Source: a virus
DNA: 30,496 nt
Virus record (IMG/VR): IMGVR_UViG_3300009130_000096
Location: 1 to 30,496 of that record
Reading direction: 5' to 3' (one strand)
In this document: one piece after another, positions 1-6,204 of the stretch
Position numbering within the stretch: the stretch's first letter is position 1
How the letters are laid out: every line of letters starts with the position of its first letter
The notes under the pieces: model-generated
What the model saw: only the letters and a program-made list of their open reading frames with translations
What the model was told of the DNA's origin: nothing
Databases searched by the model: none
Program-made: the position numbers and the translations under genes

Positions 1-903
1 ATTTTAGAGGCAGAAGCAGAAATGCTTGCTAATAAAGCAGCAGCAGATGCTTTTAAAACAGCATCTTTAGCAGAAATGTTAGCATTAAGAACAGCAGCAA
101 GTGACAAAATGGGAGTAATTGGTGACTTTACTAATTCAGTAGCAGCAGCATGGACTACAGCAGTTATTTCAGGTGGTGGTGCTCCAAGTGGTAATGCTCC
201 AGCAGCATATGATATAGCTTCTTTTATAGGAGGAACTTATCCTAATATAACACCAACAGGAGATGCAGAAGCTACTGCCCCTATAGCTTCATTATCAAAC
301 CACACTCTTCCAGTAATTTTCTCTGTTCAAAACCCAACAGGAGAAAGTGGAATAGCTCATCAGAATGGTTTCTCAACAGTAGAAAATATATTAGAAAAAA
401 CATTCTTACTAAAGGGTGCAAATGAATCTACAAGTATATCCGCAGGAGTTAAAGATTTCTGGAAATGGTTCATGGACCTAAACAATGCACCAGCTTCAAC
501 AGCAAACATTGGAGATCCTATATATGACCCAATAAAAGCTAAATGGGCTGAATTATGTGTCCCAGCTGGATTTATGGCTGATAATCAGGGAAGTGAAGAT
601 GTATTTAAACATCTTGGAACAGCTCAATTTGCATGGGCTAACCTTTCTAAAAAAGGATACTCAGATACAGCTTATACAAAAGCAGAATGGAAATCAGATG
701 CAGTTTATTTCCTTACTCAATTTCAAGTAGGTGTAGATAAAATACAAGAAATGTATGATAGTGGTATGACTGCTTATGATCAATTCGCAGACCCACTGGG
801 AGGGAAAATTGGTGAATTTTCAACATTAATAAGTGCAGCTTTAACAGAACAAAGTTCAGGATACTATTATAATGGAGAAGGAGTAGGAGAGAATCTTCTA
901 TAA
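1..903 (+). CDS. Unrecognised Ala-rich protein, 5' end missing
   Basis: The reading frame is open from base 1, so the gene is truncated by the window edge. An ATG at 22 is the first one visible but need not be the true start. About 300 residues are seen. The first 50 or so are Ala-rich and probably helical (for example ANKAAADAFKTASLAEM). The remainder is mixed, with many Gly, Ser, Thr and aromatic residues, and ends in YYYNGEGVGENLL. I see no signal peptide, membrane segment or catalytic motif, and I do not recognise the family. It lies just upstream of the tail block and is followed by a strong terminator, so it is probably the last gene of an upstream operon. A virion or head role is plausible from position only. 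Confidence 0.75.
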   Translation: MLEAEAEMLANKAAADAFKTASLAEMLALRTAASDKMGVIGDFTNSVAAAWTTAVISGGGAPSGNAPAAYDIASFIGGTYPNITPTGDAEATAPIASLSNHTLPVIFSVQNPTGESGIAHQNGFSTVENILEKTFLLKGANESTSISAGVKDFWKWFMDLNNAPASTANIGDPIYDPIKAKWAELCVPAGFMADNQGSEDVFKHLGTAQFAWANLSKKGYSDTAYTKAEWKSDAVYFLTQFQVGVDKIQEMYDSGMTAYDQFADPLGGKIGEFSTLISAALTEQSSGYYYNGEGVGENLL

Positions 904-959
904 TAAACCAATACCAATTTTATAAAGTAAAGTACACCTTTACAAAAATAAAATTTATA

Positions 960-984
960 GGGGAACGAAAGTTCCCCTTTTTTT
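960..984 (+). terminator. Rho-independent terminator
   Basis: A perfect 7-bp stem GGGGAAC / GTTCCCC closes on a GAAA tetraloop and is followed directly by seven T residues. This is a textbook intrinsic terminator. It sits 57 bases after the stop of the first gene and ends that upstream transcript. Confidence 0.93.
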
Positions 985-1040
985 ATCTCTTTTTATATAT
1001 TTATCCCATATAATAATAATGTTTTTGACAAATAAGTCAT

Positions 1041-1304
1041 ATGAGTATATTATCAGATGTTGGGGCCTTCTTTGGTCAGAAATTAGGTGAATTACAAAAC
1101 CTAGTAGACACTAAAATAAGTTCCTCAACAGATCAAGACATAGAAATAACAGATTCAAATAAAGGAGTAATTTTAAATTCATCCTCAGGAGACAGATATA
1201 GATTAAGAATAACTGATGATAAAAAATTAGTTATTGATGATATTGAATTAAATACAACCCATATAGCAGAAATACAATTAGTGCCTAGTGGTTCAAGTAG
1301 CTAA
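1041..1304 (+). CDS. Small unknown protein, 87 aa
   Basis: The protein starts MSILSDVGAFFGQKLGEL, a short amphipathic helix. A Ser/Thr/Asp-rich middle follows, then a beta-rich stretch (GDRYRLRITDDKKLVIDD). The ATG is preceded by a TTTTTGACA string and an A/T-rich leader but no Shine-Dalgarno sequence. The gene stands alone between a terminator upstream and a large inverted repeat downstream. I do not recognise the family. Its size and the strand-like second half would fit a small virion or decoration protein, but this is inference from position only. Confidence 0.7.
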   Translation: MSILSDVGAFFGQKLGELQNLVDTKISSSTDQDIEITDSNKGVILNSSSGDRYRLRITDDKKLVIDDIELNTTHIAEIQLVPSGSSS

Positions 1305-1320
1305 AAAATGGTAGTTTAAA

Positions 1321-1368
1321 ATTGGAAGGGATTTCTTTTAAAAAAGATAATATACTCACCCTTCCAAT
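1321..1368 (+). terminator. Long inverted repeat between genes; terminator-like or processing hairpin
   Basis: ATTGGAAGGG (1321-1330) and CCCTTCCAAT (1359-1368) form a perfect 10-bp stem around a 28-base A/T-rich loop. The loop contains a smaller TCTTTT/AAAAGA pairing. Only a weak T-run follows (CTACCTTTTAAT), so termination may be partial. It separates the 87-aa gene from the glycosyltransferase-like trio. It could instead be an RNA-processing or stability element. Confidence 0.6.
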
Positions 1369-1379
1369 CTACCTTTTAA

Positions 1380-1387
1380 TATTTATA
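1380..1387 (+). promoter_or_regulatory. TATTTATA element upstream of the first glycosyltransferase-like gene
   Basis: An exact TATTTATA in the context AATATTTATAT ends 4 bases before the ATG at 1392. It is one of eight exact copies found just upstream of structural or fiber genes. If it were a -10 box, transcription would begin inside the start codon region, so its mode of action here is unclear. Confidence 0.5.
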
Positions 1388-1391
1388 TCAA

Positions 1392-2297
1392 ATGAAAGGA
1401 ATCCATTCAATATATACCTTTACAGATAGAGTAAGATATAAAGAACAATCTTATTTAGATATGGGATTATTTGAAGCTTATACCTTAATTTTATCTTGTT
1501 GTTATTGGAGAAAATTCCATGGAGATATTTCATTATATTGTGATAAAGATTTTTATAAATTTATTCAAGAATATAAATTAACCTCTTTATGGGACAATAT
1601 AGATAATACTTCTTTTGATTCTATTCCTAATGATATAAATTATAGTGTTTTTTGGACTTATCCTAAAATGTATATTCATTCGTTACAAAATCAACCCTTT
1701 ACTTCATTAGATGCTGATTTATTTTTTTGGGAGCCTCTTAATTTAAAAAAAGCAAACATAATATATGCCCATCCAGAAGTAGATCTAACAGGAGAAAATT
1801 ACCCAGATTACCACACTTCAAAAGAATATAAAGATATCTTTAAAGATTTAACTTTTAATGAATATTCTAGTAATATGAATACTGCCATATTAACTATTAA
1901 TAAAGTAGATTTTTATAAAGAATTAATGGATATAACTACTAGATTTGCAAAAAGGGCTACTATTAACATTAAAAATCAAAAATCAGTTCATGAATGGACT
2001 CATACAATTTTTTGTGAACAAAAGATAATAAGAAATGTTATTGAAAAACATAATTTGTCATGTGTGCCTCACTATGAAAAAGAATATTATACTGGAGAAG
2101 GAACAATTTGGCCTGAGGGTCATAGATTTGAGTTAGATGATGCCAAAATATTTCATTTATGGGGGAGCAAAACAAGAATAAAAAATGATCAAGAAGAAAG
2201 ATATGAATTAAATAAAAGACTTCATGATTGGATCGAAACAGATTTCCCAGAAATGATGGATATAGTTACTATTTTTAAAAAAATATTAAAACTATGA
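1392..2297 (+). CDS. Glycosyltransferase-like protein, paralog 1 of 3
   Basis: This 301-aa protein has the pattern of a GT-A-fold sugar transferase. An N-terminal beta/alpha section is followed by SVFWTYPKMYIHSLQNQPF and then a DxD-type motif, LDADLFF, with Asp at residues 107 and 109. In GT-A enzymes this motif holds the metal and the nucleotide-sugar. The same block (W.YPK.YI.SLQ.EPF..LDNDA) recurs in the next two genes, so the three are paralogs, and this one is the most divergent. It lacks the NAG(I/V)YG motif of the other two and has MNTAILTIN there. There is no signal peptide or membrane segment, so it is probably cytoplasmic. The stop overlaps the next start (ATGA), implying translational coupling. 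The family assignment is from motifs only; donor and acceptor are unknown. It may modify virion proteins, DNA or host surface sugars. Confidence 0.75.
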   Translation: MKGIHSIYTFTDRVRYKEQSYLDMGLFEAYTLILSCCYWRKFHGDISLYCDKDFYKFIQEYKLTSLWDNIDNTSFDSIPNDINYSVFWTYPKMYIHSLQNQPFTSLDADLFFWEPLNLKKANIIYAHPEVDLTGENYPDYHTSKEYKDIFKDLTFNEYSSNMNTAILTINKVDFYKELMDITTRFAKRATINIKNQKSVHEWTHTIFCEQKIIRNVIEKHNLSCVPHYEKEYYTGEGTIWPEGHRFELDDAKIFHLWGSKTRIKNDQEERYELNKRLHDWIETDFPEMMDIVTIFKKILKL

Positions 2298-3154
2298 AAA
2301 TTATATATACTATTTGGTCAAAACCTCATTTAGAGAAAGGTACTAATTTTGGTTTCCCTACTTTAGAAAATTTTATTAATAGTTTTGTTCTTAGTGTAAA
2401 TGCTATGAAATTAAACTATGATGATATTCATCTTTACATAGATACCCCTGGATTAAAAATGTTAGAACCCCACCTTGATAATTTACCTATCAAAAAAATC
2501 CACAATATATTAGATGAACTAGATTGGTTACCTAGTTTTTTTTGGGCTTTTCCTAAAATTCATGTTTATGGTTTACAAGATGAACCTTTTTTACATATAG
2601 ATAATGATGCTTTTTTATTTACCAAAATCCCACAAGAAGTATTAGATGAATGGGATATAATATGTCAATGGTTTGAAAATTATTTTTGGGATGAATATTC
2701 CCAATACCTAGAAGCTTTCTCATATTGGAGAAAATTCAATATTCTTCCTATGGAATTAATGTATTATCAGATTCATAGTACATGCCCTAATGCTGGGATT
2801 TATGGACCATGTAATGAAAAAGGTTTAAAATTATTTAAATATATTTCAAAAAAAGGAATGGAAACAGCTAAAAAAATAATCTCCAATAAAAAAGTATTAA
2901 ATCAACTACTAAAAGATTTAAAAGATGGAAACTTTTTACCTTATTATGTAAATATGATAAATGAACAATCCAGTTCAGGCGTGTATATGGATAAAAATGG
3001 TTTAAAAACTTTTTCAGTCTTACCTAATGACAATGAATATGCCATTCAATTCCAACATTTAATAGGAGGAGCAAAATTAGACCCTATAGCTAATGAAAAT
3101 ATCTCTGAAAGAATAAAAAATAAAAATTGGAATTTAAAAGAACCAGAAGAATGA
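2294..3154 (+). CDS. Glycosyltransferase-like protein, paralog 2 of 3
   Basis: This 286-aa paralog begins MKIIYTIWSKP, matching the start of the third copy (MKIVYSLWTKP). It then carries DELDWLPSFFWAFPKIHVYGLQ and the DxD-type motif HIDNDAFLF (Asp103 and Asp105). The next shared landmark is CPNAGIYGPCNEKGLKLF, a Gly-containing segment of the kind that follows the metal site in sugar transferases. The gene overlaps both neighbours by ATGA, so the three are one translational unit. No export signal is visible. The role is inferred as sugar transfer with an unknown substrate. Three tandem copies suggest either stepwise building of one glycan or related acceptors. Confidence 0.77.
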   Translation: MKIIYTIWSKPHLEKGTNFGFPTLENFINSFVLSVNAMKLNYDDIHLYIDTPGLKMLEPHLDNLPIKKIHNILDELDWLPSFFWAFPKIHVYGLQDEPFLHIDNDAFLFTKIPQEVLDEWDIICQWFENYFWDEYSQYLEAFSYWRKFNILPMELMYYQIHSTCPNAGIYGPCNEKGLKLFKYISKKGMETAKKIISNKKVLNQLLKDLKDGNFLPYYVNMINEQSSSGVYMDKNGLKTFSVLPNDNEYAIQFQHLIGGAKLDPIANENISERIKNKNWNLKEPEE

Positions 3155-4041
3155 AAATAGTATACTCATTATGGACTAAGCCCCTAAGAACACATTATAA
3201 TACTTTAGGATTTGATACTTTAGATGATTTTTTCACTAGCTTTATTTTTAGTGTAAATGTCTCAAAAAGAAATTATGATAATATCCATTTTTACACAGAT
3301 GAATATGGATTAGAATTAATAGAACCCTATAAGGACCAACTCCCATTTACTAAAATCCATTGTATACTAGATGAACTAGATTGGATCCCAGTTCAATGGT
3401 GGGCATACCCAAAACTTTATATTTACTCCCTCCAAAAAGAACCTTTTATGCATTTGGATAATGATGCTTATTTGTGGGACAGACTTGACCAAGATTTAAT
3501 TGATAATCATGATTTTGTTTGTCAAAGTTATGAAGACCATAGACTTAAAGAATATTATTTTTATAGAGAAGGTTTAGAATTTTATAAAGATCACATCCCT
3601 CCCATAATGTTAAACACAGATAAATATTTTATGGCTACCAATGCAGGTGTATATGGTGCTTTTAATCAAAAAGGATTTGATTTATTTACAGCTTTACATG
3701 AAGAAGGTTATAAAAGTGCTAAATCCGTTTTAAATGATAAAAGGATAGTAGATTTTGTAGATTGGAATGATTTAAGAAACTGGGATGCTTTTCTATTAAA
3801 TGTAGTTATGGAACAAACATATTCATATATTTATGCCAAGGAAAACAATCTTAGGATTTTACAATTATTAATGACCCCTACTAGGTTTACTCATTTACTT
3901 TCTGCTGCGAAGAGAAATAAAGATCGTATGGATAAAGTAAGAACAAGACTTATAAATAAACATTTTGAACCCAAATCCCCAAAAGAAATAGAAGCTGATG
4001 AAATTGAAAAATTATATATTGCAACTTATAAAAAAGATTAA
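3151..4041 (+). CDS. Glycosyltransferase-like protein, paralog 3 of 3, possibly shortened at its C-terminus
   Basis: I place the start at the ATG at 3151 rather than the in-frame ATG at 3127. The 3151 start gives MKIVYSLWTKP, which aligns with MKIIYTIWSKP of the preceding paralog, and it recreates the ATGA stop/start overlap. The product is 296 aa. Landmarks are DELDWIPVQWWAYPKLYIYSLQ, HLDNDAYLW (DxD Asp103 and Asp105) and TNAGVYGAFNQKGFDLF. The frame ends in KKD at an A6 run (4030-4035). Directly after it a different frame stays open to the stop at 4133-4135 and encodes a basic and then polar tail with no start of its own. This could be a lost or frameshifted C-terminal extension. Donor and acceptor are unknown. 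Confidence 0.76.
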   Translation: MKIVYSLWTKPLRTHYNTLGFDTLDDFFTSFIFSVNVSKRNYDNIHFYTDEYGLELIEPYKDQLPFTKIHCILDELDWIPVQWWAYPKLYIYSLQKEPFMHLDNDAYLWDRLDQDLIDNHDFVCQSYEDHRLKEYYFYREGLEFYKDHIPPIMLNTDKYFMATNAGVYGAFNQKGFDLFTALHEEGYKSAKSVLNDKRIVDFVDWNDLRNWDAFLLNVVMEQTYSYIYAKENNLRILQLLMTPTRFTHLLSAAKRNKDRMDKVRTRLINKHFEPKSPKEIEADEIEKLYIATYKKD

Positions 4042-4135
4042 ATCTTTATTTAGAAAAAAAATAAAACCCGTTTATAAAGCCCCCTTCATTGATTATCATG
4101 ATCAACAAGGAATAAATTCCCATTACTTAGATTAA
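4042..4135 (+). other. Open out-of-frame tail after the third glycosyltransferase-like gene
   Basis: In the frame offset by +1 from the gene before it, codons stay open from before the A6 run through to TAA at 4133-4135. They encode a basic segment (KSLFRKKIKPVYK) then APFIDYHDQQGINSHYLD. There is no ATG in this stretch that could start it alone. It may be a remnant or frameshift product of the upstream gene, or chance. Confidence 0.3.
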
Positions 4136-4186
4136 AAATAGTTTGATTTCCCTCATATCCTTATATATTTTGACAAAAACACTTAA

Positions 4187-4194
4187 TATTTATA
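4187..4194 (+). promoter_or_regulatory. TATTTATA element upstream of the coiled-coil gene
   Basis: An exact TATTTATA in the context TTAATATTTATAAAC ends 3 bases before the ATG at 4198. A TTGACA string lies at 4170-4175, 11 bases upstream of it. It is the closest of the eight copies to a start codon. Confidence 0.5.
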
Positions 4195-4197
4195 AAC

Positions 4198-4446
4198 ATG
4201 GAAAAAACAGTTTTATCACAAGAAGAGCTAAATAATTTAGCCACGTTACAACAACAACAAGACAATTTTATAATTCAATTAGGACAGATTGAATATCAAA
4301 TTAGTACTTTAGAAAAACAGAAAAAAAATATTAAACAAAACATTGAGAGTTTTGAAAAAAATCAAATTGAATTAGGTGACCAACTAAAACAAAAGTACGG
4401 AGAAGGTACAGTAAATTTAGAAAGCGGAGAATTCGTTAAAGCCTAA
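4198..4446 (+). CDS. Small coiled-coil protein, 82 aa
   Basis: Residues from about 8 to 66 are rich in Gln, Glu, Lys and Leu/Ile with heptad-like spacing (for example LGQIEYQISTLEKQKKNI), which predicts one long coiled coil. The tail, YGEGTVNLESGEFVKA, looks like a short ordered end. There is no Cys, signal peptide or membrane helix. The gene sits alone between two TATTTATA elements, directly ahead of the tail sheath, so it is probably expressed with the late genes. Small coiled-coil proteins at this place in phage genomes are common, but I do not recognise the family and cannot give a function. Confidence 0.75.
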   Translation: MEKTVLSQEELNNLATLQQQQDNFIIQLGQIEYQISTLEKQKKNIKQNIESFEKNQIELGDQLKQKYGEGTVNLESGEFVKA

Positions 4447-4470
4447 TTGCGTTTTTAAAAAACTCTGCAA

Positions 4471-4478
4471 TATTTATA
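4471..4478 (+). promoter_or_regulatory. TATTTATA element upstream of the tail sheath gene
   Basis: An exact TATTTATA in the context CAATATTTATAAAC ends 22 bases before the sheath ATG. This spacing would allow a short A-rich leader if transcription starts just downstream. Confidence 0.55.
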
Positions 4479-4479
4479 A

Positions 4480-4495
4480 ACAAAATTAATTTTGT
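4480..4495 (+). promoter_or_regulatory. 16-bp perfect palindrome before the tail sheath start
   Basis: ACAAAATTAATTTTGT is its own reverse complement and lies 5 bases upstream of the sheath ATG, immediately after the TATTTATA element. As RNA it could form a 6-bp A/U-rich hairpin with a TTAA loop. As DNA it could bind a dimeric regulator. The palindrome is seen directly; its function is inferred. Confidence 0.4.
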
Positions 4496-4500
4496 AGAAA

Positions 4501-6204
4501 ATGGCAGAAACTTTATTATCCCCTGGTGTATTAGCTAGAGAAAACGATCAATCTTTTCTCCAACAGCAACCTATTCAAGCAGGTGCAGCTATCTTAGGTC
4601 CAACAGTTAAAGGACCAGTTGGAATCCCAACCATAGTTACCACATATTCAGATTATAAAAATGTATTTGGTGCCGTAGTAGAGAGTGGTAGTGATGAGTA
4701 CACTTATTTCACCTCAGTTGCAGCATATAATTATTTCCAACAAGGTGGAGATTCATTATTAGTAACAAGAGTAGTAAGTGGTTCTTATTCAGAAGCAACA
4801 AGTTCTATTGATGCCTCAGGTTCATTAACAGCTCTTACAATAGAAACCTTATCTGAAGGAACAGCACAAAATAGTTCAGGTTCAGAAGGAACAGCAGGAC
4901 AATTAACGAATGGAACTAGAGAAAATATTAGATGGGAAGTTGTAAACCCAAATTCAGGTTCAGGTACATTTAATCTATTAGTTAGAAGAGGAGATGATAT
5001 TACCAATTCTAAAACAGTATTAGAAACTTGGACTAATCTATCAATGGATCCTAACGCTTCAAATTATGTAGCTAGAGTAATTGGAGATCAAAAGCAGGAA
5101 GTAACAAGTGATGCAGGTACATATTATGTTAAAACAACAGGTACTTATGCTAATGCTTCAAGATATATTAGAATAAAATCTGTAAGTCAAAAAACATTAA
5201 ATTATTTTGATAACGCAGGAAATGCAAAATCAGAATATACATCTTCTATCCCATTAGCTGCTTCAGGTACTATGGGTGGAGCTTTAGGTACAGCATTTGA
5301 CACTATAACCGGAACATTTAATGAAAATATAGGTTCAAATACCCAAGGATTAGTAGGTGGAAATTACGATGAATCAATTTCTTTATTAGCAAATCAAGAT
5401 GAATATAAATACAATTTAATTGTAGCACCAGGATTAACTAAAGAAGACCATTCATCTCAAATTTCATCTATCATTAATAATTCTCAACAAAGAGGAGATG
5501 CAATCGCAGTAGCAGATATGGTAGGATATGCTGATACAATTACAGGAGTTACAGGTCAAGCAGCAGGAATTGATTCTTCATATGCCGCAACATATTGGCC
5601 ATGGGTTCAAACAATTGATCCAGATTTAGGAGATCAAGTTTGGGTACCAGCTTCTACAATGATTCCAGGAGTATATGCTTTTAATGATAATTCAAGTGAA
5701 GCATGGTTCGCACCTGCAGGTTTAAATAGAGGTGGATTATCAACAGTAATTAGAGCAGAAAGAAAATTAACAAACGGAAATAGAGATACATTATATCAAG
5801 GAAATGTAAACCCAATAGCTACATTCCCTAACACAGGAGTAGTAGTATTTGGACAGAAAACACTACAGAAAAGAGCAAGTGCTTTAGATAGAGTAAATGT
5901 TAGAAGATTATTAATTGAATTAAAATCTTATATTTCTCAAGTAGCAGATAACTTAGTATTTGAACAAAATACAATAGCTACAAGAAACAATTTCTTAAGC
6001 CAAGTTAACCCATATTTAGAAAGTGTTCAACAAAGACAAGGTTTATATGCCTTTAAAGTTGTAATGGATGATAGTAATAACACCCCAGATGTTATTGATA
6101 GAAATCAGTTAGTAGGTCAAATTTACATTCAGCCAACTAGAACAGCTGAATTTATTTACCTAGATTTCAACATTTTACCAACTGGAGCTACTTTCCCAGC
6201 ATAA
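4501..6204 (+). CDS. Contractile tail sheath protein (gp18-like)
   Basis: This 567-aa protein polymerises around the tail tube and contracts to drive the tube into the host. The N-terminus ETLLSPGVLARENDQSF is the typical sheath start, in which an extended strand links subunits. It continues with the conserved IQAGAAILGPTVKGPVGIPT and YFQQGGDSLLVTRVV. The C-terminal sheath domain is clear: RRLLIELKSYISQVADNLVFEQN, then NPYLESVQQRQGLYAFKVV and the final QIYIQPTRTAEFIYLDFNI. It is shorter than T4 gp18 (about 660 aa), mainly in the exposed, Ser/Gly/Thr-rich middle. The tail tube gene follows, as is standard. The upstream region has a TATTTATA element and a 16-bp palindrome but no Shine-Dalgarno sequence. 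Confidence 0.96.
   Translation: MAETLLSPGVLARENDQSFLQQQPIQAGAAILGPTVKGPVGIPTIVTTYSDYKNVFGAVVESGSDEYTYFTSVAAYNYFQQGGDSLLVTRVVSGSYSEATSSIDASGSLTALTIETLSEGTAQNSSGSEGTAGQLTNGTRENIRWEVVNPNSGSGTFNLLVRRGDDITNSKTVLETWTNLSMDPNASNYVARVIGDQKQEVTSDAGTYYVKTTGTYANASRYIRIKSVSQKTLNYFDNAGNAKSEYTSSIPLAASGTMGGALGTAFDTITGTFNENIGSNTQGLVGGNYDESISLLANQDEYKYNLIVAPGLTKEDHSSQISSIINNSQQRGDAIAVADMVGYADTITGVTGQAAGIDSSYAATYWPWVQTIDPDLGDQVWVPASTMIPGVYAFNDNSSEAWFAPAGLNRGGLSTVIRAERKLTNGNRDTLYQGNVNPIATFPNTGVVVFGQKTLQKRASALDRVNVRRLLIELKSYISQVADNLVFEQNTIATRNNFLSQVNPYLESVQQRQGLYAFKVVMDDSNNTPDVIDRNQLVGQIYIQPTRTAEFIYLDFNILPTGATFPA

Follow-up and report, generated by a model that had tools for sequence, protein, structure and literature searches.

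Sugar transfer to phage particles has been described before: in mycobacteriophages, phage-encoded enzymes are reported to glycosylate capsid and tail-tube proteins (Freeman 2023, cited in PMC12619734). The subject of the present report is a group of three consecutive genes, C1–C3, which lie ahead of the tail sheath gene in a 30,496-base virus record (IMGVR_UViG_3300009130_000096, hereafter the window, by which the whole stretch is meant). The record is classed as linear, and may thus be a fragment. As interpreted here, this locus would resemble the mycobacteriophage system in placing phage-encoded glycans on the particle, and differs from it in its hosts. There is no sign that the mycobacteriophage system makes use of DUF6734, the protein family to which C1–C3 belong. 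Since phage virion glycosylation has been described (PMC12619734), the kind of system is already known, and the view taken in the initial annotation, that no comparable phage system with a characterisation could be named, was too strong. The stronger finding is a slot before the sheath gene in which cassettes are exchanged, together with a tie between the unnamed DUF6734 family and contractile particles.

With regard to known enzymes, C1–C3 resemble GT-A transferases of the GT8, GT24 and GT6 types (LgtC, glycogenin, UGGT and blood-group transferases) in predicted fold, DxD motif and conserved C-terminal His, but show no match to them at sequence level and no hit to a Pfam glycosyltransferase family. 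A further point of comparison is provided by the fibres of contractile injection systems, for which DUF6519 is described as eBAP5, an N-terminal baseplate-anchor domain (PMC12923769); the terms 'glycosyltransferase' and 'glycosyl' are absent from the main text of that source. The reading preferred here, to which we give a probability of about one half, is that the window carries an exchangeable cassette, probably expressed late, whose enzymes add sugars to a protein of the virion, most likely one that is exposed on the tail or fibres.

Three DUF6734 genes and a small fourth gene

All of the genes concerned are located on the plus strand. C1 (1392–2297) encodes 301 aa, C2 (2294–3154) 286 aa and C3 (3151–4041) 296 aa from the ATG at 3151; the open reading frames (ORFs) are real and, as first annotated, are linked by ATGA overlaps at 2294 and 3151. 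Their placement ahead of the tail sheath gene (4501–6204) likewise holds, with an 82-aa ORF (starting at 4198) in between. Each product matches Pfam family PF20508 (DUF6734), with scores of 63.6 bits for C1 (E = 2.7e-17, profile positions 1–280 of 286), 117.6 bits for C2 (E = 9.2e-34, positions 1–274) and 128.4 bits for C3 (E = 4.8e-37, positions 1–249). As all three exceed the curated cut-off of 27 bits, the likeness among them is not due to chance. PF20508 itself carries no assigned function. The shared motif quoted in the initial annotation is exact only in part, reading WWAYPKLYIYSLQKEPFMHLDNDA in C3, FWAFPKIHVYGLQDEPFLHIDNDA in C2 and FWTYPKMYIHSLQNQPFTSLDADL in C1, whilst the DxD-type motif it proposed is present in all three proteins.

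The description of these genes as three paralogues is correct insofar as all belong to DUF6734, although C1, the divergent copy, is no close paralogue of the other two. In a tree of 168 rows, including the three from the window, C2 and C3 are sisters with support of 100/97; their next relatives (L230, L284 and L295, our locus labels) are all viral contigs, and C1 forms a long branch remote from both. This tree started from 238 domain hits, from which sequences that scored low or covered only part of the profile, those more than 80 % identical or shorter than 200 aa, and the copies of a twin contig were dropped. A single triplication of one gene was considered and rejected: forcing C1–C3 into one clade costs 18.9 log-likelihood units (p-AU 0.053), and a common clade is therefore disfavoured by the tree but falls short of formal rejection. 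Comparison with L006, from the one contig found to share the cassette, gives dN/dS values of 0.18, 0.25 and 0.06 for C1, C2 and C3, respectively, next to 0.26 for the sheath and 0.14 for the tube, such that all three genes are, by this codon measure, under purifying selection.

The initial annotation saw three genes in the cassette and overlooked a small fourth. This gene (3998–4135, 45 aa, MKLKNYILQ...GINSHYLD) overlaps the 3′ end of C3. Between the window and L006 its codons display eight synonymous changes and one non-synonymous change; in the other two frames, beyond the C3 stop, 8/8 and 7/8 residues are changed. An exact-pattern search of viral contigs returned the L240/L006 contig alone, and no other locus.

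Predicted fold and conserved residues

AlphaFold2 models of C1 and C3 were generated from an alignment of 105 family members. That of C3 is confident (pLDDT 92.4, pTM 0.89), and that of C1 (pLDDT 82.8, pTM 0.86) is fair, being weak at 233–249. The best structural matches to C3 are YeGT (Z 12.6, rmsd 3.3, 187 residues aligned), UGGT (Z 12.2, rmsd 4.2 over 228) and LgtC (Z 12.1, rmsd 3.9, 224 aligned), and those to C1 are glycogenin-2 (Z 12.8, rmsd 4.3, 219 aligned) and UGGT (Z 12.7, rmsd 3.9 over 228); XXYLT1, blood-group transferases and WbbM are also found. The best Foldseek E-values are modest (7.5e-5 for C3 and 7.8e-7 for C1), with the matches listed being overwhelmingly GT-A transferases, mostly of the retaining type. 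Amongst models of viral proteins, matches include some named glycosyltransferase family 8, as well as tailed-phage proteins. The structure prediction proposed as a check in the initial annotation thus bears out its GT-A suggestion for C1 and C3.

Seven residues (K88, Q95, F99, D103, D105, E221 and H248 in C3 numbering) are invariant in 105/105 aligned sequences. All are retained in C1 (K92, Q99, F103, D107xD109, E209 and H255), and C2 likewise keeps them, including D103xD105, E224 and H255. At the positions of C3 H101, G169 and Y92, C1 instead has Ser, Thr and His, respectively. A DxD motif, a later Glu and a C-terminal His-x-x-Gly-x-x-Lys make up the layout of metal-dependent GT-A enzymes such as GT8, and the conserved C-terminal His of DUF6734 lies in an H..G..K-like motif that we take to resemble the H..G..K motif of GT8. 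With the fold predicted for C1 and C3, and the DxD and C-terminal metal-type His present in all of C1–C3, their assignment as GT-A glycosyltransferases is well supported at the level of predicted structure. Placement in GT8 or another named CAZy family was tried and rejected: there is no sequence match to any of these, DUF6734 is the sole Pfam hit at E ≤ 1, and the family profile has 0 matches at E ≤ 10 amongst PDB sequences. Because sequence searches fail to place the family there, DUF6734 is not filed as GT8. PHROG scans of C1–C3 gave weak hits only, which were of no use.

A late-promoter-like element shared with virion genes

C1–C3 lie ahead of the sheath gene and are preceded by an element of virion type. 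The sole example in the cassette is a late-promoter-like AATATTTATA (1378–1387, plus strand), located 12 nt before the C1 start. The element TATTTATA occurs 12 times on the plus strand of the window, against 3.9 expected, and 8 of the 31 called genes have a copy in the 60 nt before their start. These copies, at 1380, 4187, 4471, 6221, 6800, 7868, 10214 and 28519, lie 11–37 nt ahead of the genes at 1392, 4198, 4501, 6251, 6837, 7892, 10246 and 28538, respectively, which comprise members of the virion block plus one gene beside fibre-like ORFs; none of the window's replication or RNR genes has it within 60 nt upstream. Of the 81 related loci examined, 60 have TATTTATA before the sheath gene, and its position there lies between −28 and −39 in nearly every case. 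We take TATTTATA to be two bases off the T4 late-promoter core, TATAAATA, and on its placement it may be the late promoter of this lineage. Hence, an element shared with structural genes, as initially reported, is real and fixed in position across relatives, whilst late expression of the cassette is something we infer.

A pre-sheath exchange slot

The cassette, consisting of the element, C1–C3 and the small gene, spans 1373–4135 on the plus strand when its joined flanks are aligned to the unoccupied sites in L007, L302 and L304; these edges are approximate, to within a few bases. When the gene on the left flank was used for a scan, it picked out L302, L303, L304 and L007, in each of which the flanking genes are adjacent before the sheath and the cassette is absent. 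In the tube and gp26-like genes, L007 shares 97 % identity with the window, yet it lacks the cassette, whilst L006, which possesses it, shows only 86 % (tube) and 61 % (gp26-like) identity in those genes and 90–95 % in the cassette proteins. Given this contrast, the cassette moves independently of the genes around it, although gain and loss look alike in such sequence comparisons.

The region around the sheath was also surveyed in 80 loci selected by their sheath and without regard to sugar enzymes, covering 324 kb upstream and 334 kb downstream. These loci include near-duplicates (e.g. L074/L075, L083/L085 and L030/L035/L051), and their upstream genes, called by a simple ORF script, were scanned in part singly and otherwise as cluster representatives. 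Upstream of the sheath, a GT1/GT9 fusion gene is found in 13/80 loci; GT9-like and sulfotransferase genes each occur there in four, and those resembling APS kinase and cytidylyltransferase each in three. Downstream, the count for all of these is 0. The label 'GT9-like' denotes a likeness by eye, as that gene has no Pfam match. Genes of the GT9-like, sulfotransferase, kinase and cytidylyltransferase types are also located beside DUF6734 in L230, L295 and L261, whose copies are the closest relatives of C2/C3. In the distant relative L279, found via DUF6734 and hence outside the 80, DUF6734 itself occupies the pre-sheath slot, adjoining genes that match radical SAM. In this slot, phages of the lineage exchange one sugar-transfer cassette for another. 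As close relatives both carrying and lacking the cassette occur naturally, the slot makes the question of particle glycosylation directly testable.

TibC is a protein glycosyltransferase, and a likeness to TibC-type protein heptosyltransferases is seen in L058, where a gene ahead of the sheath matches Glyco_transf_9 and, below threshold, TibC_1st. That gene differs from DUF6734 in its Pfam families (GT1 fused to GT9), and no sequence relation between the two was seen.

Other tandem genes occupy the same region. In L279, four consecutive related genes (379–5767) precede DUF6734 and the sheath; the three tested all match radical SAM, one also matching SPASM and two lying below the curated cut-off. 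A separate family of approximately 250 aa, one member of which begins MKIALLISGQPR, is present in two to four tandem copies before the GT1/GT9 gene and sheath in L029 (2398–5385), L041 (1167–3215), L066 (2354–3858) and L072 (1635–3142); the one member tested has no Pfam match. By eye this family seemed akin to a gene of L279 (7552–8205), a kinship that was rejected when the family profile missed that gene.

DUF6734 in other phages and in bacteria

Sampling with a residue pattern returned at least 119 bacterial and 93 viral DUF6734 loci, all confirmed by profile. As the pattern demands exact residues, and so misses members resembling C1, and as the bacterial counts given here are among the matches listed, these numbers describe a sample. 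Bacteroidota are the source of 86 of the 119 bacterial loci. Amongst the other 33, the phylum of one being unknown, a DUF6519 gene immediately precedes DUF6734 on the same strand in 15 loci (L203, L096, L121, L148, L124, L154, L186, L165, L139, L153, L162, L104, L201, L205 and L163), and in 14 of these it does so within 77 nt; the phyla represented are Acidobacteriota, Pseudomonadota, Cyanobacteriota, Chlorobiota and Myxococcota. Ten of the 15 also hold a conserved gene like that before DUF6519 in L203, where it is preceded by a Baseplate_J match. In these extracellular contractile injection systems (eCIS) with DUF6519 (eBAP5) fibres, which are bacterial particles and not phages, DUF6734 is thus the gene that immediately follows that of the fibre. 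C1–C3 do not conform to this fibre-linked arrangement, as neither of their 87-aa and 82-aa neighbours has a DUF6519 match.

A second bacterial association is with LanC-like genes, which come next on the same strand in nine of the 119 loci (L107, L194, L206, L178, L196, L202, L176, L102 and L171), as well as in the viral L239. These pairs suggest glycosylated lanthipeptide-like products in Bacteroidota and Chlorobiota. Neighbour scans, from which short ORFs were dropped, covered 109 of 162 listed bacterial and 188 of 203 listed viral neighbours, and Peptidase_C39 and ABC exporters are found amongst the 109.

With regard to viruses, five loci of another T4-like group (L222, L229, L259, L264 and L267) hold DUF6734 and a sheath gene in the same stretch, with DUF6734 lying two genes after the portal gene in L259. 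In other phages, it is located beside carbamoyltransferase or UDP-glucose dehydrogenase genes. Some viral contigs are possibly misfiled bacterial DNA, namely L278, which falls amid bacterial rows, and L239 of the LanC group. In tblastn searches of a phages collection, C3 and the L107 member had no match and C2 only noise at E ≥ 0.5; scans of viral contigs with back-translated peptides recovered the twin contig alone, and a first genome scan found no relative. No description of DUF6734 function was found in the literature searched, with most subscription journals being outside the reach of that search.

Proposed role and alternatives

In the proposed mechanism, the small gene, C1–C3 and their own late-type element would form a transcription unit of approximately 2.75 kb, inserted ahead of the sheath with a conserved gene on either side. 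Following the late switch, transcription would begin from the TATTTATA copy 12 nt before C1, so that enzymes and small protein would be made alongside the tail proteins. C1–C3 would be active, metal-dependent GT-A glycosyltransferases that draw on the nucleotide sugars of the host and, with the aid of a metal ion, assemble a short glycan on a tail or fibre protein that is exposed. One enzyme may prime the polypeptide and the others extend the chain, and C1 would have a different donor or acceptor. We infer, then, that the enzymes are catalytic, are expressed late, act on a protein and work in this order. A protein acceptor is favoured because the settings of DUF6734 share a ribosomal product as plausible acceptor. 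On this view the initial annotation, correct on the genes and on the class of enzyme, also put forward the appropriate main hypothesis.

Several observations weigh against this reading. The acceptor cannot be read from a GT-A fold, and the eCIS-linked DUF6734 proteins lie on a separate branch of the tree from the window copies, such that their acceptor type may not carry over. Only 7/93 viral DUF6734 loci have a recognisable sheath gene in the flank, and this number includes the near-twin L240, whilst the carbamoyltransferase and UDP-glucose dehydrogenase neighbours also fit glycan building for other targets. Furthermore, DUF6734 is present in 0/80 of the sheath-selected loci, and its linkage to this sheath gene is consequently occasional. 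The linkage to tail genes expected in the initial annotation is accordingly retained in part: the slot repeatedly holds other glycosyltransferases, and DUF6734 is found there in L279 and beside eCIS fibre genes, but it is missing from the sheath-selected set, and close relatives have an empty site.

The most credible rival, albeit one we consider rather unlikely, is that the enzymes modify capsule or lipopolysaccharide (LPS) sugars of the host surface during infection, thereby blocking superinfection or attachment to debris, with the site ahead of the sheath reflecting late timing only. The LPS and capsule enzymes LgtC and WbbM amongst the fold matches, and sugar-nucleotide genes amongst the viral neighbours, are consistent with this, as are the known serotype-converting glycosyltransferases of phages (cited in PMC12619734). 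However, no lysogeny gene was recognised in the part of the ORFs scanned in the 30-kb window, nor any flippase-like partner in the cassette, and the ties of DUF6734 to fibre and LanC genes point to polypeptide acceptors. Serotype conversion acts mostly in lysogeny. An improbable variant of the polypeptide idea makes the 45-aa product the substrate, as a phage-borne glycosylated peptide of a set like that of ribosomally synthesised and post-translationally modified peptides (RiPPs). The small gene is indeed conserved as a protein (eight synonymous changes to one) and overlaps C3, and DUF6734 in bacteria adjoins LanC-like, Peptidase_C39 and ABC exporter genes; the cassette, however, shows no maturation or export gene, and the peptide was found in no locus beyond the twin contig.

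It seems highly improbable that the sugars go onto modified bases in the DNA of the phage, in the manner of T-even phages. The phage is T4-like, and hypermodification of DNA by glycosyltransferases that viruses encode has been reported (Pyle 2024, cited in PMC12619734), but the part of the window ORFs read contains no recognised base-modification gene, the cassette element is of virion type and not seen before replication genes, and bacterial DUF6734 lies beside fibre and peptide-modification genes. Least probable of all, with only a very slight chance of being correct, is that the genes are useless cargo drifting after transfer from a Bacteroidota host. Whilst their patchy presence, the empty sites of near relatives and the predominance of Bacteroidota amongst bacterial members (86/119 of the matches listed) would suit such a view, dN/dS values of 0.06–0.25 and invariant residues kept in all copies do not, C2 and C3 group with phage rather than host sequences, and unrelated glycosyltransferases recur at the slot.

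Beyond glycosylation of a virion protein by this one cassette, a wider and distinctly tentative proposal may be formulated, namely that DUF6734 is a GT-A family devoted to ribosomal products and recurrently deployed on contractile nanomachines. Phage tails and injection-system fibres would then be sugar-coated by the same family, and the pre-sheath slot would swap glycosylation cassettes to vary the coat. The analysis provides an enzyme class for an unnamed family with at least 119 bacterial and 93 viral loci, and it ties a family of glycosyltransferases to contractile particles in a specific manner that can be tested. If this tie is real, the phage and injection-system particles of many bacteria bear glycans that have hardly been looked for, with a bearing on receptor choice and on immune recognition of such particles.

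Tail block and neighbouring genes

The window encodes a contractile-tail block of T4-like type, with both sheath and tube matching tail families. The sheath gene (4501–6204, plus strand) matches PF04984/PF17482 and phrog_23 (E = 9.3e-73). Its nearest isolate relative is that of Flavobacterium phage immuto, at 53.6 % identity; in that phage a lysozyme is annotated two genes before the sheath, and none of the 20 features around the sheath is named as a glycosyltransferase. The gene to the left of the cassette (1041–1304, plus strand, 87 aa), homologues of which are present at the empty sites, has no Pfam family above cut-off. That to the right, between cassette and sheath (4198–4446, plus strand, 82 aa), has sub-threshold matches to coiled-coil-type families alone; a 93 % identical counterpart lies immediately before the sheath in L007, and homologues are also found in L279 and L245.

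Just 3′ of the left flanking gene is a hairpin (1321–1368) bearing GATAATATACTCA at 1346–1358, which is the exact reverse complement of the start-codon region of that same gene (1042–1054). Both the stretch and its complementarity are identical in L006, L302, L303 and L304, and the stretch also occurs in L007, with the bases of the stem varying. A 12-nt antisense match to a gene's own start soon after its stop is seen in 4 of 1875 genes, two of which are this gene, and antisense self-control of its translation is possible.

Further upstream in L006 (3931–5734) are two consecutive Ala-rich paralogous ORFs (MAQNEKALGVIALAMNAKF...), and the first ORF of the window (1–903) is the cut end of one such paralogue; these are possibly virion decoration proteins. 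Finally, the sheath is approximately 690 aa long in L007 (644–2722), L303 (7655–9724) and L304 (7652–9724), compared with 567 aa in the window, and these longer proteins are 78–90 % identical to that of the window over the aligned parts, which suggests that an extra sheath domain has been gained or lost between close relatives.

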